Shown here piece by piece: positions 7,234 through 16,730 of a stretch of 20,278 nt of DNA. A model generated the notes under the pieces. It was not told where the DNA came from, ran no database searches, and saw only the letters and a list, made by a program, of their open reading frames with translations. Location: the IMG/VR virus record IMGVR_UViG_3300048541_000001, positions 1-20,278 of that record; one strand, written 5' to 3'. The position numbers were made by a program, and so were the translations under genes. How positions within the stretch are numbered: the stretch's first letter is position 1; each line of letters starts with the position of its first letter. The stretch comes from a virus.

Positions 7234-7854
7234 TTAAAGTGCTTCTTCTACATCAAATTCAAATTGATACAACAAAGCACCATCATTAGCAGTACCAACA
7301 GCACCAAACTCTTGCATATCATTAGTTAGATGTACTGTAAAAGGAACATTATCATAAGTTACTGCTGAATCATCTGCTACTGTTTGTAAAAGAGGTGGCT
7401 CGATAGTTACTGTTGAAGCACCACTAGAAGCCTGAACATCTGCAACAATCATATAAACTTTATCGTGACTAGCAAACTTAATAAAATCTCCTGACTTAAA
7501 TGCGTGTGGATTATCATTGTGGTGTCCGTCCATAGCAATCGTTGTATCTCCTACTGCGTGAGCACCATTAACTAATACAGTATTAGTTTCATTACCTCTA
7601 GCATTTGTAACTTCTGGTGGGATAATAGTAAAGTTTTCTTTGCCTGATCTTTGTTTAATTATAAAAGCCATTAATTCTCCATAAACATCTGATCTAGTTC
7701 CTGTAACTATTCTAATAGTAAATGCAAATCTTTGATTGTCTATTTGTCTAGCAAGTTTTTTACCAGATACACTTTTTGAAATAATAGTATTCTGAATAGA
7801 CTTTATTCCTAAAGATTCAAATTTAGCAGAAGATATTGGAAAAGCACCTGACAT
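7234..7854 (-). CDS. Distal tail / minor tail protein (likely)
   Basis: This 206-residue protein follows the tape measure directly (TAATG overlap), where distal tail or DUF2460-like tail-tip proteins are found. It is beta-rich: strands around RFAFTIRIVTGTRSDV, GELMAFIIKQRSG, then a compact loop-rich domain (DTTIAMDGHHNDNPHAFKSG, FIKFASHDKVYMIVADVQA) and a final strand region ending LLYQFEFDVEEAL. The 'F..GDFIKF...KVYMIV' segment resembles an OB-like or hub insertion domain used in tail hubs. Exact family is uncertain; a tail hub or minor tail protein joining tube and tip is the best reading. Confidence 0.7.
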   Translation of the reverse strand: MSGAFPISSAKFESLGIKSIQNTIISKSVSGKKLARQIDNQRFAFTIRIVTGTRSDVYGELMAFIIKQRSGKENFTIIPPEVTNARGNETNTVLVNGAHAVGDTTIAMDGHHNDNPHAFKSGDFIKFASHDKVYMIVADVQASSGASTVTIEPPLLQTVADDSAVTYDNVPFTVHLTNDMQEFGAVGTANDGALLYQFEFDVEEAL

Positions 7855-9797
7855 TAAATTAAACTCTCCTGACCTCTTTCATTAACTGCGTTATTAATTA
7901 ATTGAGTTATAGTTCCTCTTGATCTTACAAGTAATTCTTCAAAGCCAGAAGCATCTACTGTGTTAATATTAAAATTAACTGTAGTACCACCACCAGTTCC
8001 TGTGCCTCTAGCATTTTGTGTAATTTGTCCTGTTTGGTTTGGTACAAATAATTCAGGCCCTTGTTCTCCAACTAAAATTGGTCTTCCTTTTGATACTGCA
8101 CCACCTTGAGCATGAGAACCACCAATATCAATACTTGAACCACCACCACCACCACCACCCATCATCATAAGTAGTGCTTGAAGCATAACTTGTTTTCTTT
8201 TTTCTTTTGTGATGTTTTTTTCTATATCTAGTTTTTTAGTGTCTTGTTTAAATATTTTTTCTATAATAAATTTTTCTATTGTAAGTAACATTATTCTTTC
8301 AATCATTTTAGCAAGTACATCAACTAATAATTGTTGTGCTAGTTCTTTAAATGACATATTTAAAGATTTACCTAATACAACTGCTTCTGCTATTGATCTT
8401 GAAATTTTACTTGTAAAAGATGTTATTGTACTAACTATTTCTGATGATAAAGAAAACTCTGAATTTTGTTCTTTTATTTTTTGTAATACTTGTCCTTGAA
8501 TATCATTTTGCTCTTGAAATTTTTTAACTCCCTCTGTTTCTAATTCATGGAATTTTAATCTCTTTTCATTCGCTTCTTCTAATAAGAAATTTTGTAGTTT
8601 TAATTCTTTTTCTTTTGCTTTTGCAATAGCTTCTTCTGTTTTAGCAATATCTACTATTGATTCTTTTGTTCGTATCATTGTTTTGTGTAAATCTCTTGCA
8701 TCAGGTAAAGCATTTTTGACACTATGTGAAAAATCTTCAAATCCATCTTTCATGTCATCAAATAATTTCTCCATACCTTTAAATGCTAAAAATATTGCAC
8801 CACCTTTAGCTATGGCTTTTGCAATTCCTAATAAGCTACCTTTTGTAAATAAAGTAGCAAAACCAAATGACATCATGGCTTTAGCAACATTAGTTACTGC
8901 TACTGCAAGGCTAGTAAATAGTGTAACAACTTTAACAGATATTAATATTTGTATTAATGTTACAAAGGTATTCATATTATTTTTCATAACAATCACTGCA
9001 TCTGCAACTTTTTTAATTGCAAAACCTAAAGCAATTCCAATATCTTCTGCAATACGATCTATTTCTTTTGAGTTTTCTTCTAAAAATTTATCTAATGCAC
9101 CAAACTCTTTTTTAAGACTTTCAAATAAACCAGCCTCTAAAATAGTTTTCTTAAAGTTAAATATTTTATCTCCAATCATTGATAAAGTTCCTGTAAAAGT
9201 TTCTGCTAATTCATCAGTAGCTTTTCCAAATCTACCACCCTTACCAAATACTTTTTCAAATGCTTTAACTGTATCTTCAATAGAAACTGTTGCTCCAGCT
9301 TTAAAGCCAAGCATATTTCTTACACCTTTTTCTCTGAATAAATCTGCCGCACCAATACCAGCACTAAATGATCTTTGTATTTGTTCAGCAGTAGTTCTAA
9401 AATCTAATCCTGTTACTGCCGCAACATTACCTGTGATTTCTAACATATTTTGTAGATCATCAGCATTGTCTGTGACAGTTGCTAAAATACCTGAACCTCT
9501 TGATATTTCTTCTAATGAAAATGGAACTTTAGATGCAAATTCTGACATATTGTCAAAAGCCTTTGCACCCTCATTTGTATCTTTAAGTAAAAATTTTAAT
9601 CTTACTCTTAAATTTTCAATATCTTTACCTGTGTTAATTAAATTTCTTGCTACTAACCCAGCACCTAAACCTAAAAAAGCATTTCTAAGATTAAATACTG
9701 CACCTTTTACTTTTGCTAAACCTTTTTGGACATTGTTTAAAGCCTGTTTCGACTTATCCTTTGCTACAATATCTATGTCTAACTTTTGACTTGCCAT
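7854..9797 (-). CDS. Tape measure protein
   Basis: This 647-residue protein sets tail length and is likely involved in DNA ejection. It starts with a helical region and a hydrophobic segment near residues 30-50 (FNLRNAFLGLGAGLVARN), contains further hydrophobic stretches around residues 250-350 (TFVTLIQILISVKVVTLFTS, GGAIFLAFKG), helical coiled-coil segments (EEANEKRLKFHELETEGVKK) and a C-terminal Gly-rich patch with the lambda-type ending motif GEQGPELFVPNQTG. At 1.5 angstrom per residue it would specify a tail near 97 nm. Seven consecutive GGT codons encode a Gly run. Start ATG overlaps the G-T stop. Confidence 0.92.
   Translation of the reverse strand: MASQKLDIDIVAKDKSKQALNNVQKGLAKVKGAVFNLRNAFLGLGAGLVARNLINTGKDIENLRVRLKFLLKDTNEGAKAFDNMSEFASKVPFSLEEISRGSGILATVTDNADDLQNMLEITGNVAAVTGLDFRTTAEQIQRSFSAGIGAADLFREKGVRNMLGFKAGATVSIEDTVKAFEKVFGKGGRFGKATDELAETFTGTLSMIGDKIFNFKKTILEAGLFESLKKEFGALDKFLEENSKEIDRIAEDIGIALGFAIKKVADAVIVMKNNMNTFVTLIQILISVKVVTLFTSLAVAVTNVAKAMMSFGFATLFTKGSLLGIAKAIAKGGAIFLAFKGMEKLFDDMKDGFEDFSHSVKNALPDARDLHKTMIRTKESIVDIAKTEEAIAKAKEKELKLQNFLLEEANEKRLKFHELETEGVKKFQEQNDIQGQVLQKIKEQNSEFSLSSEIVSTITSFTSKISRSIAEAVVLGKSLNMSFKELAQQLLVDVLAKMIERIMLLTIEKFIIEKIFKQDTKKLDIEKNITKEKRKQVMLQALLMMMGGGGGGGSSIDIGGSHAQGGAVSKGRPILVGEQGPELFVPNQTGQITQNARGTGTGGGTTVNFNINTVDASGFEELLVRSRGTITQLINNAVNERGQESLI
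8139..8159 (-). repeat. (GGT)7 trinucleotide repeat in the tape measure gene
   Basis: Seven perfect GGT codons encode a run of glycines just after MMM in the C-terminal third of the tape measure. The tract is in frame, so slippage would change glycine number without disrupting the gene. It probably serves as a flexible linker before the C-terminal GEQGPELFVP region. Confidence 0.8.
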
Positions 9798-10326
9798 TAT
9801 TTTAAATTCCTTGCTTCTGCTAGTGATTGACTTGTTTTATACTGTTCTTGCTCTTTTTTCAAGTAAGCTAACCAAAGATTATAATGGCTAACAGGCATAT
9901 CAAGAACTTCTTGAATTGTAATGTGGAGTCTATCTGCAACAATTAAAAGCGACCTAACATCTGGGTCGCTATTTACTTTTTTTCAGCTTCCTCGTGGCTA
10001 GTATCTAAAAGAATTTGATTTGCAATATTTGAGATAACATTAGTATCTGCTTTTTTTCTTAGTGCAAATTTATCTTCTGGGCTAAATGCTTTTATCATTT
10101 CTCCTTTGTCATTTTTGACTTGGAGTTTCATTATAAGCAAATCAACAAGAATAGTTAAATCTTGAAAGTTGTTAGACTTCTTAAAGATGATGTTTTTTTC
10201 TTCAAGGGTTAATGGCTCTGAATAGAATACACTAGCTTTACCATGCTCGTCTTTCCACTCCTCAACTTCAATAGTGATAGTTTTAAGAGTTTCAAAATGA
10301 GATTTAACTCTATCAATAACTGACAT
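9797..10326 (-). CDS. Tail assembly chaperone, frameshifted long form (gpG-T-like)
   Basis: A -1 shift at A AAA AAG (9982-9976) lets ribosomes continue past the G stop in another frame. After 117 G residues the product would add 59 more, starting VNSDPDVRSLLIVADRL and containing DMPVSHYNLWLAYLKKEQ, then a helical end (SLAEARNLK) and TAA at 9799-9797, giving about 176 residues. The extension has no own start and matches lambda gpT in position and character: a short domain rich in Trp/Tyr helices that contacts the tail tube. The final stop shares an A with the tape-measure ATG (TAATG). Confidence 0.85.
9948..9982 (-). promoter_or_regulatory. Programmed -1 ribosomal frameshift site with stem-loop
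   Basis: Minus-strand reading from 9982: slippery heptamer A AAA AAG in the correct G frame (codons GAA AAA AAG), then TAA directly, a 5-nt spacer, and a 7-bp stem AGCGACC (9970-9964) pairing with GGTCGCT (9954-9948) across a 9-nt loop. Slippery heptamer, spacer and hairpin match known bacterial -1 frameshift elements, such as the dnaX-type AAAAAAG. The new frame stays open for 59 codons. Confidence 0.85.
9973..10326 (-). CDS. Tail assembly chaperone, short form (lambda gpG-like)
   Basis: This 117-residue protein comes between the tail tube and tape measure genes, the position of the lambda G/T chaperones. It is helical and charged (KSHFETLKTITIEVEEW, LTLEEKNIIFKKSNNFQDL, FALRKKADTNVISNIANQIL) and terminates at TAA (9975-9973) right after a slippery A AAA AAG heptamer. 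The G-type chaperone coats the tape measure and must be produced in excess over the frameshifted longer form. No catalytic motif is expected. Unshifted translation ends ...EEAEKK. Confidence 0.85.
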   Translation of the reverse strand: MSVIDRVKSHFETLKTITIEVEEWKDEHGKASVFYSEPLTLEEKNIIFKKSNNFQDLTILVDLLIMKLQVKNDKGEMIKAFSPEDKFALRKKADTNVISNIANQILLDTSHEEAEKK

Positions 10327-10335
10327 AAATTAAAA

Positions 10336-10722
10336 TTAGACAGTACCTATAGTTAATGCACCAGTTCCTTGAAAAGTAACAGTTCTTGAAACGATTGCGT
10401 CCATTGAGTTATTAACTGACATTCCTGTAACAATTCCTGTACCAGCAAAACTTCTGTCGCCACTTGCATTACCCTCTGGGAGTAATATAAATGAGATTGA
10501 AGCACCAGCAACTAGGCTTGTTTGTGGGCTATCTGTTTCGTCAAAGTGCATTTCTAATGTTCCAGAGAATGAAGTTCGACCAGCAACAAATGATTTAGTA
10601 GCATCTGTTAAAGCTGTATCTTCTACAACATCTCCTGTAGTTTCAAGTGTGAATGATGTTAGTTCCCCAACAGCAGTTCCACCAGCAGTAACTACGCCTT
10701 CTTTTCCGTGATGTGTTGCCAT
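10336..10722 (-). CDS. Major tail protein (tail tube)
   Basis: This 128-residue protein is the likely tube subunit. It has the usual beta-rich composition, with repeated Thr/Ser/Gly and strands such as GVVTAGGTAVGELTSFTLET, SFVAGRTSFSGTLEMHFDET and MDAIVSRTVTFQGTGAL, and no helix-rich or membrane region. Tail tube proteins of this small type in siphophages show a start GxxGxVxxGGxxVGELxxF followed by 'SGT..' strands, as here. Position just before the G/T chaperones and tape measure is diagnostic in gene order. It probably polymerises as hexameric rings around the tape measure. Confidence 0.88.
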   Translation of the reverse strand: MATHHGKEGVVTAGGTAVGELTSFTLETTGDVVEDTALTDATKSFVAGRTSFSGTLEMHFDETDSPQTSLVAGASISFILLPEGNASGDRSFAGTGIVTGMSVNNSMDAIVSRTVTFQGTGALTIGTV

Positions 10723-14512: not shown

Positions 14513-14740
14513 TTAAATTACAATACCCTCTGTTGTAGGGTAAAATTTTTCTATATCTTTTTTTGTTACTTCTTTTTTATTTGAAATCGAAGATTCTAAT
14601 AAGTTAATAAGTTTTTTTTGTAAAATCTTATCTCTATTAATAAAAATTGTTACTAATTCTAATGGTTTTTTAAATGTTTTGTTATACTCAGCTAATAATT
14701 CATTAACTTTAAATTTATCTAATTTATTTTTCTTAACCAT
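14513..14740 (-). CDS. Small basic protein directly after the MuF-peptidase gene; unknown
   Basis: This 75-residue protein (MVKKNKLDKF...TTEGIVI) is lysine-rich and predicted mostly helical, with no signal peptide or membrane span. Its ATG overlaps the end of the MuF gene by 8 nt and has a strong AGGAG site inside that gene, so translation is coupled to it. Its DNA is also very AT-rich (about 20% GC by hand count), like the insert in the MuF extension and unlike the scaffold gene after it. By analogy to polymorphic MuF toxins, where an immunity gene follows the toxin, it is a candidate immunity protein or chaperone. It could equally be an unrelated capsid accessory protein; no family is recognised. 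Confidence 0.7.
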   Translation of the reverse strand: MVKKNKLDKFKVNELLAEYNKTFKKPLELVTIFINRDKILQKKLINLLESSISNKKEVTKKDIEKFYPTTEGIVI

Positions 14741-16730
14741 CTATTTCTCCTATTCGTTGAACCAATGTATCAAACCCTTTTGTAGTATTAGGTGCATAAT
14801 AATTCATTAATTTTCTTTCAATTACTGTCATTTCCTTAATAGGGTTTATACTCATAGATGAGTGTTCTGCCCATGCTTCAAGTGATTGTCCTTGTGTAAA
14901 TTGTTTAATACCAGAATTTTCAAGATAACCGAATTTATTATAGTAATCTACACCATGACCATAACCTAATGATTCTTTTGTTATTGAACCAATGTAGTCA
15001 TTAAATGTTTCACTAAATTGATAATCATAATTTTTGCTAGTATTATCAATAAATTTATTATTTAGTTTTAGCTTAAAATTTAAAACAGCACTATCATTAT
15101 CTGATAAACTATTATTTTTTAAATAATATTTTATTTCATCATCTGTTAAAATATCTGATTTAATTAAGCTATTTTGTTTTTTGTAATATTCATTATATAA
15201 AGGATTAATTTTACCATCAACAACTAATTCAGGTGCATTTTTTTCTATATTTTTTAATTGTGTTTCATATTTCAATTTATTTTTAGAATAATTTCTACTT
15301 AATATTTTATCATCATCAATCATATTTTTAATATTGTATGAAGATAATATCTTGTCAGATGCTTTTTTAGTAGTAATACCTGTGGGTATATTAAACCCTT
15401 TTAAAACAATTTTTCTTTTATTTGGGTTGTTTAATAAATATTCACTTAACTTAATATCTATTCTATGAGTATATTCATGTATCATAGTTAATTGTCTTGC
15501 GTTTTTTGAACTCTGCACACCTAATTCTAATATATCTCCATCAGAAGCACCATAATATGGACTTCTACCTTTTGTTTGCAATATAGATTTAGTAGGTGCT
15601 AATAAACTTATAGCATTTGAATATGGTGTTCTTTCTTTACCAAAACTTTCTTCTAATAAATTTCTTTCTTGATCTCCAATTTCTCCATAAATATTTCTTG
15701 AGATTTCTGTCGGTTTTACATCTGTAATATTTGAAACTGTTTCATCAAATCTATCATCTTCTTCGTACCAATCAGGATTAACATATGAAAACTGATGCCT
15801 ACAATTATAGCCACCTCTTACAATCATAGGGTTTCCACCTTTTTTACCTGACCAACTTCTAGTAGACCAAATATCTTGTATTTCTTCTATAGTAAATAAT
15901 CCATTGGCTCGTTTGTTTAGACTTCCACTTACCATTCTTCTACATAAATCTCTTGTGGTTGGTATCACATCTCCATAATATTTAACAAATGTAAGTCCAG
16001 CATCTTTAGACTTATTAAAGTTTAGAGTGGCATCAAAATCTCTTAATGAATCGTTTAATATTTGACCAGCATATCTTTTCATATTCTCGCCAACTCTTGT
16101 TCTTGCATATTTACTTTGAAGTATCTTAACTGCACTATCTACTCTTGATGCTAACGCTGGGTTATCTCTATTGTTCTTAACATAATCTACCAATCTATTT
16201 ACTGCTGGGTCGCTAGAAGTAGCATAAATTCCATTGATTGATTCCCTTAATTCTTTTTCTAATACAGTAAATTCAGTTCCAACCAATGTGTTTTGATAGA
16301 CTTTATCTGATAGTATTCTTGTGAAGTTATTAGATACATCTTTAAACTGTGTGTAATATTGTTGTTTTAAGTTCTGTACTAAAGCTAAATCTCCCTTAGT
16401 TAATTCTTGAAATTCAGGTGGTATAAGGCCAATAGTTTTAAACTGTCTTTCTACTCTTTTTGCTTGTTCTCCAAATCCTTTTCTAACAACCCTATCTGCA
16501 AATGGTAAATATTCTTTATCAAGTATTGCTTTGATCTTTGGTCTTATTGCTATTGCACTTTGTAACTCAATTAATTTACCAGCTTGTCTTGGAAGTTGTT
16601 GATCAGCAAGTGCTACGATCTGTGCTTCTATCCTATCAAGTGTTTGTGTGAGTTGTTTGTAGTATTCTATTTCGGCTCGTTCTATGCCTTTAATTCGATA
16701 ATTCGTTAAATCTTTTACTATATCTGACAT
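14733..16730 (-). CDS. MuF-type minor capsid protein with C-terminal zinc metallopeptidase-like domain
   Basis: This 665-residue protein is much longer than a plain Mu gpF-like head protein. The N-terminal helical part (1-220) and the region at 225-322 (LNDSLRDFD, LCRRMVSG, GGYNCRHQFSYVNPDW) match the MuF head morphogenesis pattern, including the Cys/His-containing end; these proteins bind near the portal and can be injected. From about 330 an extension contains LTMIHEYTHRID (H418, E419, H422), a gluzincin-type HExxH, and LEAWAEHSS (E618/E622), which resembles the third-ligand ExxAE helix of anthrax lethal factor-like zincins. Between these motifs, residues about 457-577 are Lys/Asn/Ile-rich and coded by DNA of about 17% GC, against about 33% at the 5' end of the gene. 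It could be a virion-delivered toxin or effector (MuF polymorphic toxin type), or a capsid-internal protease. Confidence 0.85.
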   Translation of the reverse strand: MSDIVKDLTNYRIKGIERAEIEYYKQLTQTLDRIEAQIVALADQQLPRQAGKLIELQSAIAIRPKIKAILDKEYLPFADRVVRKGFGEQAKRVERQFKTIGLIPPEFQELTKGDLALVQNLKQQYYTQFKDVSNNFTRILSDKVYQNTLVGTEFTVLEKELRESINGIYATSSDPAVNRLVDYVKNNRDNPALASRVDSAVKILQSKYARTRVGENMKRYAGQILNDSLRDFDATLNFNKSKDAGLTFVKYYGDVIPTTRDLCRRMVSGSLNKRANGLFTIEEIQDIWSTRSWSGKKGGNPMIVRGGYNCRHQFSYVNPDWYEEDDRFDETVSNITDVKPTEISRNIYGEIGDQERNLLEESFGKERTPYSNAISLLAPTKSILQTKGRSPYYGASDGDILELGVQSSKNARQLTMIHEYTHRIDIKLSEYLLNNPNKRKIVLKGFNIPTGITTKKASDKILSSYNIKNMIDDDKILSRNYSKNKLKYETQLKNIEKNAPELVVDGKINPLYNEYYKKQNSLIKSDILTDDEIKYYLKNNSLSDNDSAVLNFKLKLNNKFIDNTSKNYDYQFSETFNDYIGSITKESLGYGHGVDYYNKFGYLENSGIKQFTQGQSLEAWAEHSSMSINPIKEMTVIERKLMNYYAPNTTKGFDTLVQRIGEIDG

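Follow-up and report, generated by a model that had tools for sequence, protein, structure and literature searches.

The window analysed here is the whole of IMG/VR virus record IMGVR_UViG_3300048541_000001, a stretch of 20,278 bases, and the feature under study lies on its minus strand. In the order of transcription, the tail module comprises the gene for the major tail protein (10722-10336), a small gene referred to as G (10326-9973), an open reading frame in the -1 register referred to as T (9976-9797) and the tape measure gene (9797-7854). The G and T site occupies the same place, between the major tail protein and the tape measure protein, in the five annotated phages matched by G. The elements of the locus, all on the minus strand, are the following:

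10336..10722, minus strand: major tail protein, given as context (phrog_10528, E 1.2e-8)
9973..10326, minus strand: G, predicted zero-frame tail assembly chaperone of 117 aa (PHROG matches of relatives; AlphaFold model compared with HK97 2ob9)
9990..9993, minus strand: Shine-Dalgarno (SD)-like GAGG of uncertain role (7 nt 5′ of the heptamer; GAG codon preference)
9983..9985, minus strand: TGA in the -1 frame, just 5′ of the heptamer (sequence)
9976..9982, minus strand: slippery heptamer A AAA AAG within a run of exactly 7 A (in frame; 97/97 distinct close relatives)
9973..9975, minus strand: zero-frame stop TAA adjoining the 3′ end of the heptamer (TAA or TAG here in 97/97 close relatives)
9948..9970, minus strand: stem-loop, putative stimulator, with arms 9970-9964 and 9954-9948 (9-nt loop, 5-nt spacer to the heptamer)
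9797..9976, minus strand: T, 59-codon -1 extension plus TAA stop (open frame; dN/dS 0.18; PHROG matches of relatives)
7854..9797, minus strand: tape measure protein, given as context (PF20155 TMP_3, E 3e-7; phrog_3779, tape measure)

Elsewhere in the window, a gene adjoining the portal gene (14733-16730, minus strand) encodes a protein of 665 aa with a metallopeptidase-like HEYTH motif in its second half. Searches of Pfam and PHROG with this protein returned no match; it may be a head protein to which another domain is fused.

The -1 frame

The -1 frame extends for 59 codons, from GTA (9976-9974) to AAA (9802-9800), and is closed by TAA (9799-9797), the last A of which is also the first base of the tape measure ATG (9797). 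The first-pass annotation of this DNA had described a 59-codon open frame running up to the tape measure start, and this holds to the base, stop and start codon overlapping by a single nucleotide. Its further statement that T lacks a start codon stands for the first 26 codons, but an in-frame ATG (9898) and an in-frame TTG (9862) follow.

Protein-level purifying selection acts on T in the -1 frame and in neither of the other two. The dN/dS ratio in this frame is 0.18, 0.25 and 0.24 across the three clades of relatives described below, and no stops occur, whereas the same region gives 0.65-0.86 when read in the zero frame and about 2 in the +1 frame. Members of the T family match phrog_337 (‘tail protein’) and phrog_16513; the alignment of T with lambda T is weak.

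Standard gene calling had been expected to miss this extension, and T is indeed absent as a feature from all four pelagiphage GenBank records. The records of HTVC112P and HTVC111P carry an antisense hypothetical ORF over T (L082:2406-2552 and L083:2406-2558, both minus strand), which is probably spurious. The record of Sinorhizobium phage phi3LM21 assigns the end of T to a hypothetical protein of its own, 36 residues long, that begins at an internal start.

The slippery heptamer and its flanking elements

The 3′ end of G reads GAA AAA AAG TAA, so that tandem -1 slippage on A AAA AAG (9982-9976) would be in register. The first-pass annotation had pointed to an in-frame heptamer immediately followed by a stop, and both are found, the TAA at 9975-9973 (minus strand). 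Since a TGA of the -1 frame lies just upstream (9985-9983), T can be reached only by a shift at this heptamer. Both the heptamer and the length of the A run are constant, A AAA AAG being unchanged and the run being exactly A7 in 97 of 97 distinct close relatives. The main genes of the window contain 69 in-frame heptamers of the form X XXY YYZ, and only A AAA AAG at 9982-9976 is accompanied by a qualifying stem, defined as one of at least 7 bp with at least 5 GC pairs that starts 4-9 nt downstream of the heptamer.

A further heptamer in the frame of G, A AAA AAA, is located 75 nt before the G stop (window 10057-10051, minus strand). It is present in most, not all, close relatives, and a -1 slip there would stop at the TGA at 9985-9983.

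Downstream of the slippery site, the spacer TAAAT (9975-9971, 5 nt) leads into AGCGACC-CAGATGTTA-GGTCGCT, in which the 5′ arm AGCGACC (9970-9964) and the 3′ arm GGTCGCT (9954-9948) form seven perfect pairs around a loop of 9 nt (9963-9955). Spacer, stem and loop are all as the first reading of the sequence had described them (9975-9948, minus strand). When the start of T was recoded synonymously 20,000 times with the codon usage of the window, no recoding yielded a stem of at least 7 bp with at least 5 GC pairs, while 7-bp stems of any composition arose in 11% of trials. Compared with dinucleotide shuffles, the RNA fold has a z score of -2.5; an equally good fold arises in 5 of the 200 shuffled sequences.

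Within the clade of the window, no other GC-rich conserved helix lies near the site; the stem has all seven pairs in 88 of 97 relatives and six of seven in the remainder. Its codons are held constant even where they are rare. Arg AGG is invariant (96/96) though it makes up 1% of Arg codons in G and 8% in the window, Ser TCG is invariant (97/97) though it accounts for near 0% of Ser codons in G and 2% in the window, and Ser AGC is found in 96/96. The stem is so nearly invariant in this clade that covariation is uninformative there, neither for nor against it. A search of Rfam at gathering thresholds gave no match in the window or in three relatives carrying the other signals described below.

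Upstream of the heptamer, GAGG is kept in 84/97 regions of the window clade and 26/35 of the DSL-LC06 clade (0/122 in the HTVC202P clade). The codon for Glu -6 is GAG in 84/94 cases in the window clade against a background of 35%, and in 30/34 in the DSL-LC06 clade against a background of 14%. GAG is thus preferred over GAA at this place far above background, a conservation at the level of the codon; binomial values computed for it take no account of relatedness among the sequences and should not be read as probabilities. An SD-like motif positioned 9-14 nt upstream of the shift site has been reported to stimulate -1 frameshifting (PMC5009743). The GAGG is only 7 nt from the heptamer, below the reported range, and its action as an upstream SD-like stimulator, suggested by its sequence, is for this reason rated as possible only.

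Relatives of the locus

Searches with G match the Pelagibacter phages HTVC112P (92%), HTVC111P (82%), HTVC202P (49%) and HTVC026P (47%) and also Sinorhizobium phage phi3LM21 (28%). Phage DSL-LC06 was matched via its capsid protein and has a chaperone region of the same layout. From five scans of viral contigs and the phage records, 255 distinct regions with G and a complete T were collected, of which 97 are close kin of the window. All 255 contain an in-frame A AAA AAG or A AAA AAC no more than 12 nt from the G stop, and all 255 have a -1 ORF of 45-64 codons. A broken heptamer next to an intact T frame, which the first-pass annotation had named as evidence against frameshifting, is found in none of them; because the relatives were gathered by similarity of G, not by the heptamer, they provide a fair test of this point. 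The conservation of heptamer and stem, which had been proposed as a check, extends to the close kin (heptamer in 97/97, all seven pairs in 88/97), but in the other clades the stem differs or is absent.

A further scan of viral contigs added relatives with the site, one of which (L375) has A AAA AAA AGT. Two very distant relatives of G (L376 and L377) have no heptamer, and their -1 frame closes within 10 codons. T-like residues (LAKELGM...) are seen downstream in another frame in both, and from this arrangement it is possible that they use a +1 or -2 shift. With the G of phi3LM21 as query, no relatives were found among genome contigs.

Three clades with three signals

In a tree of G-T proteins the clades of the window, HTVC202P and DSL-LC06 are separate and the first two are sisters (98/88); the deep joins are uncertain owing to long branches. 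The signal of the window clade consists of A7G, the local 7-bp hairpin and GAGG.

The HTVC202P/HTVC026P clade comprises 122 distinct regions (including L084:2326-2339 and L085:2326-2339) with the sequence GTA AAA AAA AAC, in which the run is exactly A9 in 122/122. The upstream A is retained even in the single case where Val is changed to Ala. This clade has no GC-rich conserved helix and no SD-like GAGG. An AU-only conserved helix at +29/+46 was considered as a stimulator and rejected (one GC pair, far from the site). Judged by its sequence, the A9 site could be a set of tandem ribosomal heptamers or a site of RNA polymerase slippage.

The DSL-LC06 clade carries A AAA AAC, and half of the clade has A6 only. 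The heptamer is followed after 6 nt by a long-range stem of 10 bp with 62 nt between its arms (L087:9670-9763). Across 41 distinct sequences (alignment A5), 97.3% of cells pair. Both sides have changed in 33 cells, compared with a mean of 8.3 in shuffled alignments and at most 16 in slid versions of the stem, and the covariation score is 0.344 versus at most 0.075 in slid versions. Some of the paired changes also alter amino acids.

A single conserved recoding site may have swapped its stimulator, and perhaps its mechanism, among these related clades, with a local hairpin in the window clade, a covarying long-range stem in the DSL-LC06 clade and, in the HTVC202P clade, an exact A9 without stem or SD-like motif where RNA polymerase may slip. 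This idea is tentative and rather doubtful.

Identity of G

A set of 32 diverse G proteins yields 25 matches to phrog_344 and 18 to phrog_16513, two profiles described as ‘tail assembly chaperone’. The G of the window taken alone falls short of a phrog_344 match; single-sequence profile matches of its G and T are weak, and searches of Pfam and NCBIfam with the single proteins gave no match above the curated cut-offs. The AlphaFold model of the window G (pLDDT 79.7, pTM 0.70) has two best matches in the PDB. One is 2ob9, the tail assembly chaperone of HK97, with a Foldseek E of 0.034 at a probability of 0.98 and a VIA Z of 8.4 (rmsd 3.9 over 101 residues, with 17% identity over the aligned part); the other is YqbN (3klu), with a Z of 6.4. 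The lambda gpG family PF06894 is not matched by the G of the window, phi3LM21 or DSL-LC06, although lambda G itself scores 207 bits, and hhalign of G against lambda gpG returns a probability of 0.1, that is, no recognisable sequence relation. From the PHROG profiles and the predicted fold, G is best placed with the HK97-type chaperones and is not detectably a lambda gpG. The first-pass reading of a -1 frameshift joining G and T is supported by the gene position, the heptamer, the stem, the selection on the -1 frame and the chaperone-like fold predicted for G, but G appears to be of the HK97 type and does not match gpG.

Proposed mechanism and alternatives

The features of this locus argue with high confidence that an HTVC111P-like pelagiphage uses programmed -1 ribosomal frameshifting, which would yield two tail assembly chaperones, G and G-T. 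Most ribosomes would translate the 117 codons of G and stop at the TAA. A minority would slip back by one base while two lysyl-tRNAs occupy A AAA AAG. The slip would be aided by the hairpin of 7 bp that begins 5 nt further on, by the adjoining stop codon and perhaps by the upstream SD-like GAGG, and the slipped ribosomes would read 59 further codons to produce G-T. By analogy with lambda, G would bind the tape measure protein and the T part would recruit the tail tube protein. The anatomy of the site, its conservation, the selection on the -1 frame and the predicted fold of G are computed here; what we infer is the slip, how often it happens, what the hairpin and GAGG each contribute and what G and G-T do. 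The slip rate is possibly higher than in lambda.

Access to T could also be gained during transcription, if RNA polymerase slipped on the A7 run and added one A to some mRNAs, in which T would then be read normally. Such slippage is known in bacteria on A9 or T9 (PMC5009743), and the constancy of the run in the window clade (A7 in 97/97) and in the sister HTVC202P clade (A9 in 122/122, without a stem) would suit it. However, A7 falls short of the A9 on which slippage is known, stretches of at least 7 A are common elsewhere in these loci and half of the DSL-LC06 clade has only A6. Nor would polymerase slippage select for invariant rare codons that build a stem 5 nt downstream, and this explanation is quite improbable for the window. 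Intrinsic termination or attenuation of transcription at the stem-loop, between G and the tape measure gene, with T as an independent gene that starts at ATG 9898, is very improbable. The GC-rich stem is followed by CTTTTAATT, the ATG is in frame within T and the end of T in phi3LM21 is annotated as an ORF of its own from an internal start. Yet 15/97 relatives retain the stem but have an interrupted T-run (CTGTTA or CTATTA), a terminator scan finds no match on the gene strand, its sole terminator-like match being on the opposite strand, and a terminator at this place would sever the tail operon. The residues of T that precede the ATG are conserved in protein sequence, and no SD-like sequence lies 5′ of ATG 9898. 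An intrinsic terminator at the stem was rejected, as no conserved U run directly 3′ of the stem is present among the 97 relatives.

The chance is slighter still that T is unexpressed, the antisense ORF of HTVC111P and HTVC112P being the real gene and the heptamer a chance poly-A. Although this ORF is annotated in two GenBank records, it is free of internal stops in just 8/97 relatives and has a dN/dS of 1.45, compared with 0.18 and no stops for T. An antisense gene over T was rejected on the internal stops in most relatives and on this ratio.

Read as a programmed ribosomal frameshift, the locus is very probably a further case of the known phage G / G-T system, and its interest comes chiefly through its relatives. 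A literature search on pelagiphage frameshifting did not find the topic in titles or abstract openings of the papers listed. The analysis corrects how a tail gene is annotated in marine phages of a widespread group: T is missing from their records, and two of these contain a probably spurious antisense ORF. Across the relatives the same two predicted products persist under differing slip signals, a natural series that would allow testing of stimulator turnover and of whether polymerase slippage can replace ribosomal slippage.

Comparison with known systems

The closest phages, HTVC112P and HTVC111P, have a G that is 92% and 82% identical, respectively, and share the heptamer, the stem and a -1 T frame reaching the tape measure gene. 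Their records differ from the present description in that T is unannotated and overlaid by the antisense hypothetical ORF.

G-T frameshifting and the chaperone roles of its products are established in lambda and the arrangement is widespread; in lambda, the binding partner of G is the tape measure protein and that of the T part is the tail tube protein, the ratio of the two products being about 30:1 (PMC5009743). The window resembles lambda in its gene order, a -1 shift near the end of G, a T that ends at the tape measure gene and two predicted chaperones from one gene. Its G differs in having no recognisable sequence relation to lambda gpG, and its site is A AAA AAG with a hairpin. Certain tailed phages are counted among the frameshift cases without evident stimulators (PMC5009743).

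The predicted fold of the window G matches the structure of HK97 gp13 (2ob9), and HK97 gp14 is annotated as a -1 frameshift product. The two systems differ in that a moron gene sits between the chaperone and tape measure genes of HK97, and identity over the aligned part is 17%.

In E. coli dnaX, a stem-loop is located 5-6 nt downstream of A AAA AAG. The window site has the same element, with a spacer of 5 nt, and like dnaX it carries an SD-like motif upstream, 7 nt from the heptamer compared with 10 nt in dnaX. The outcome of the shift is different. Whereas frameshifting in dnaX leads to early termination, the shift in the window would bypass a stop codon and extend the protein.
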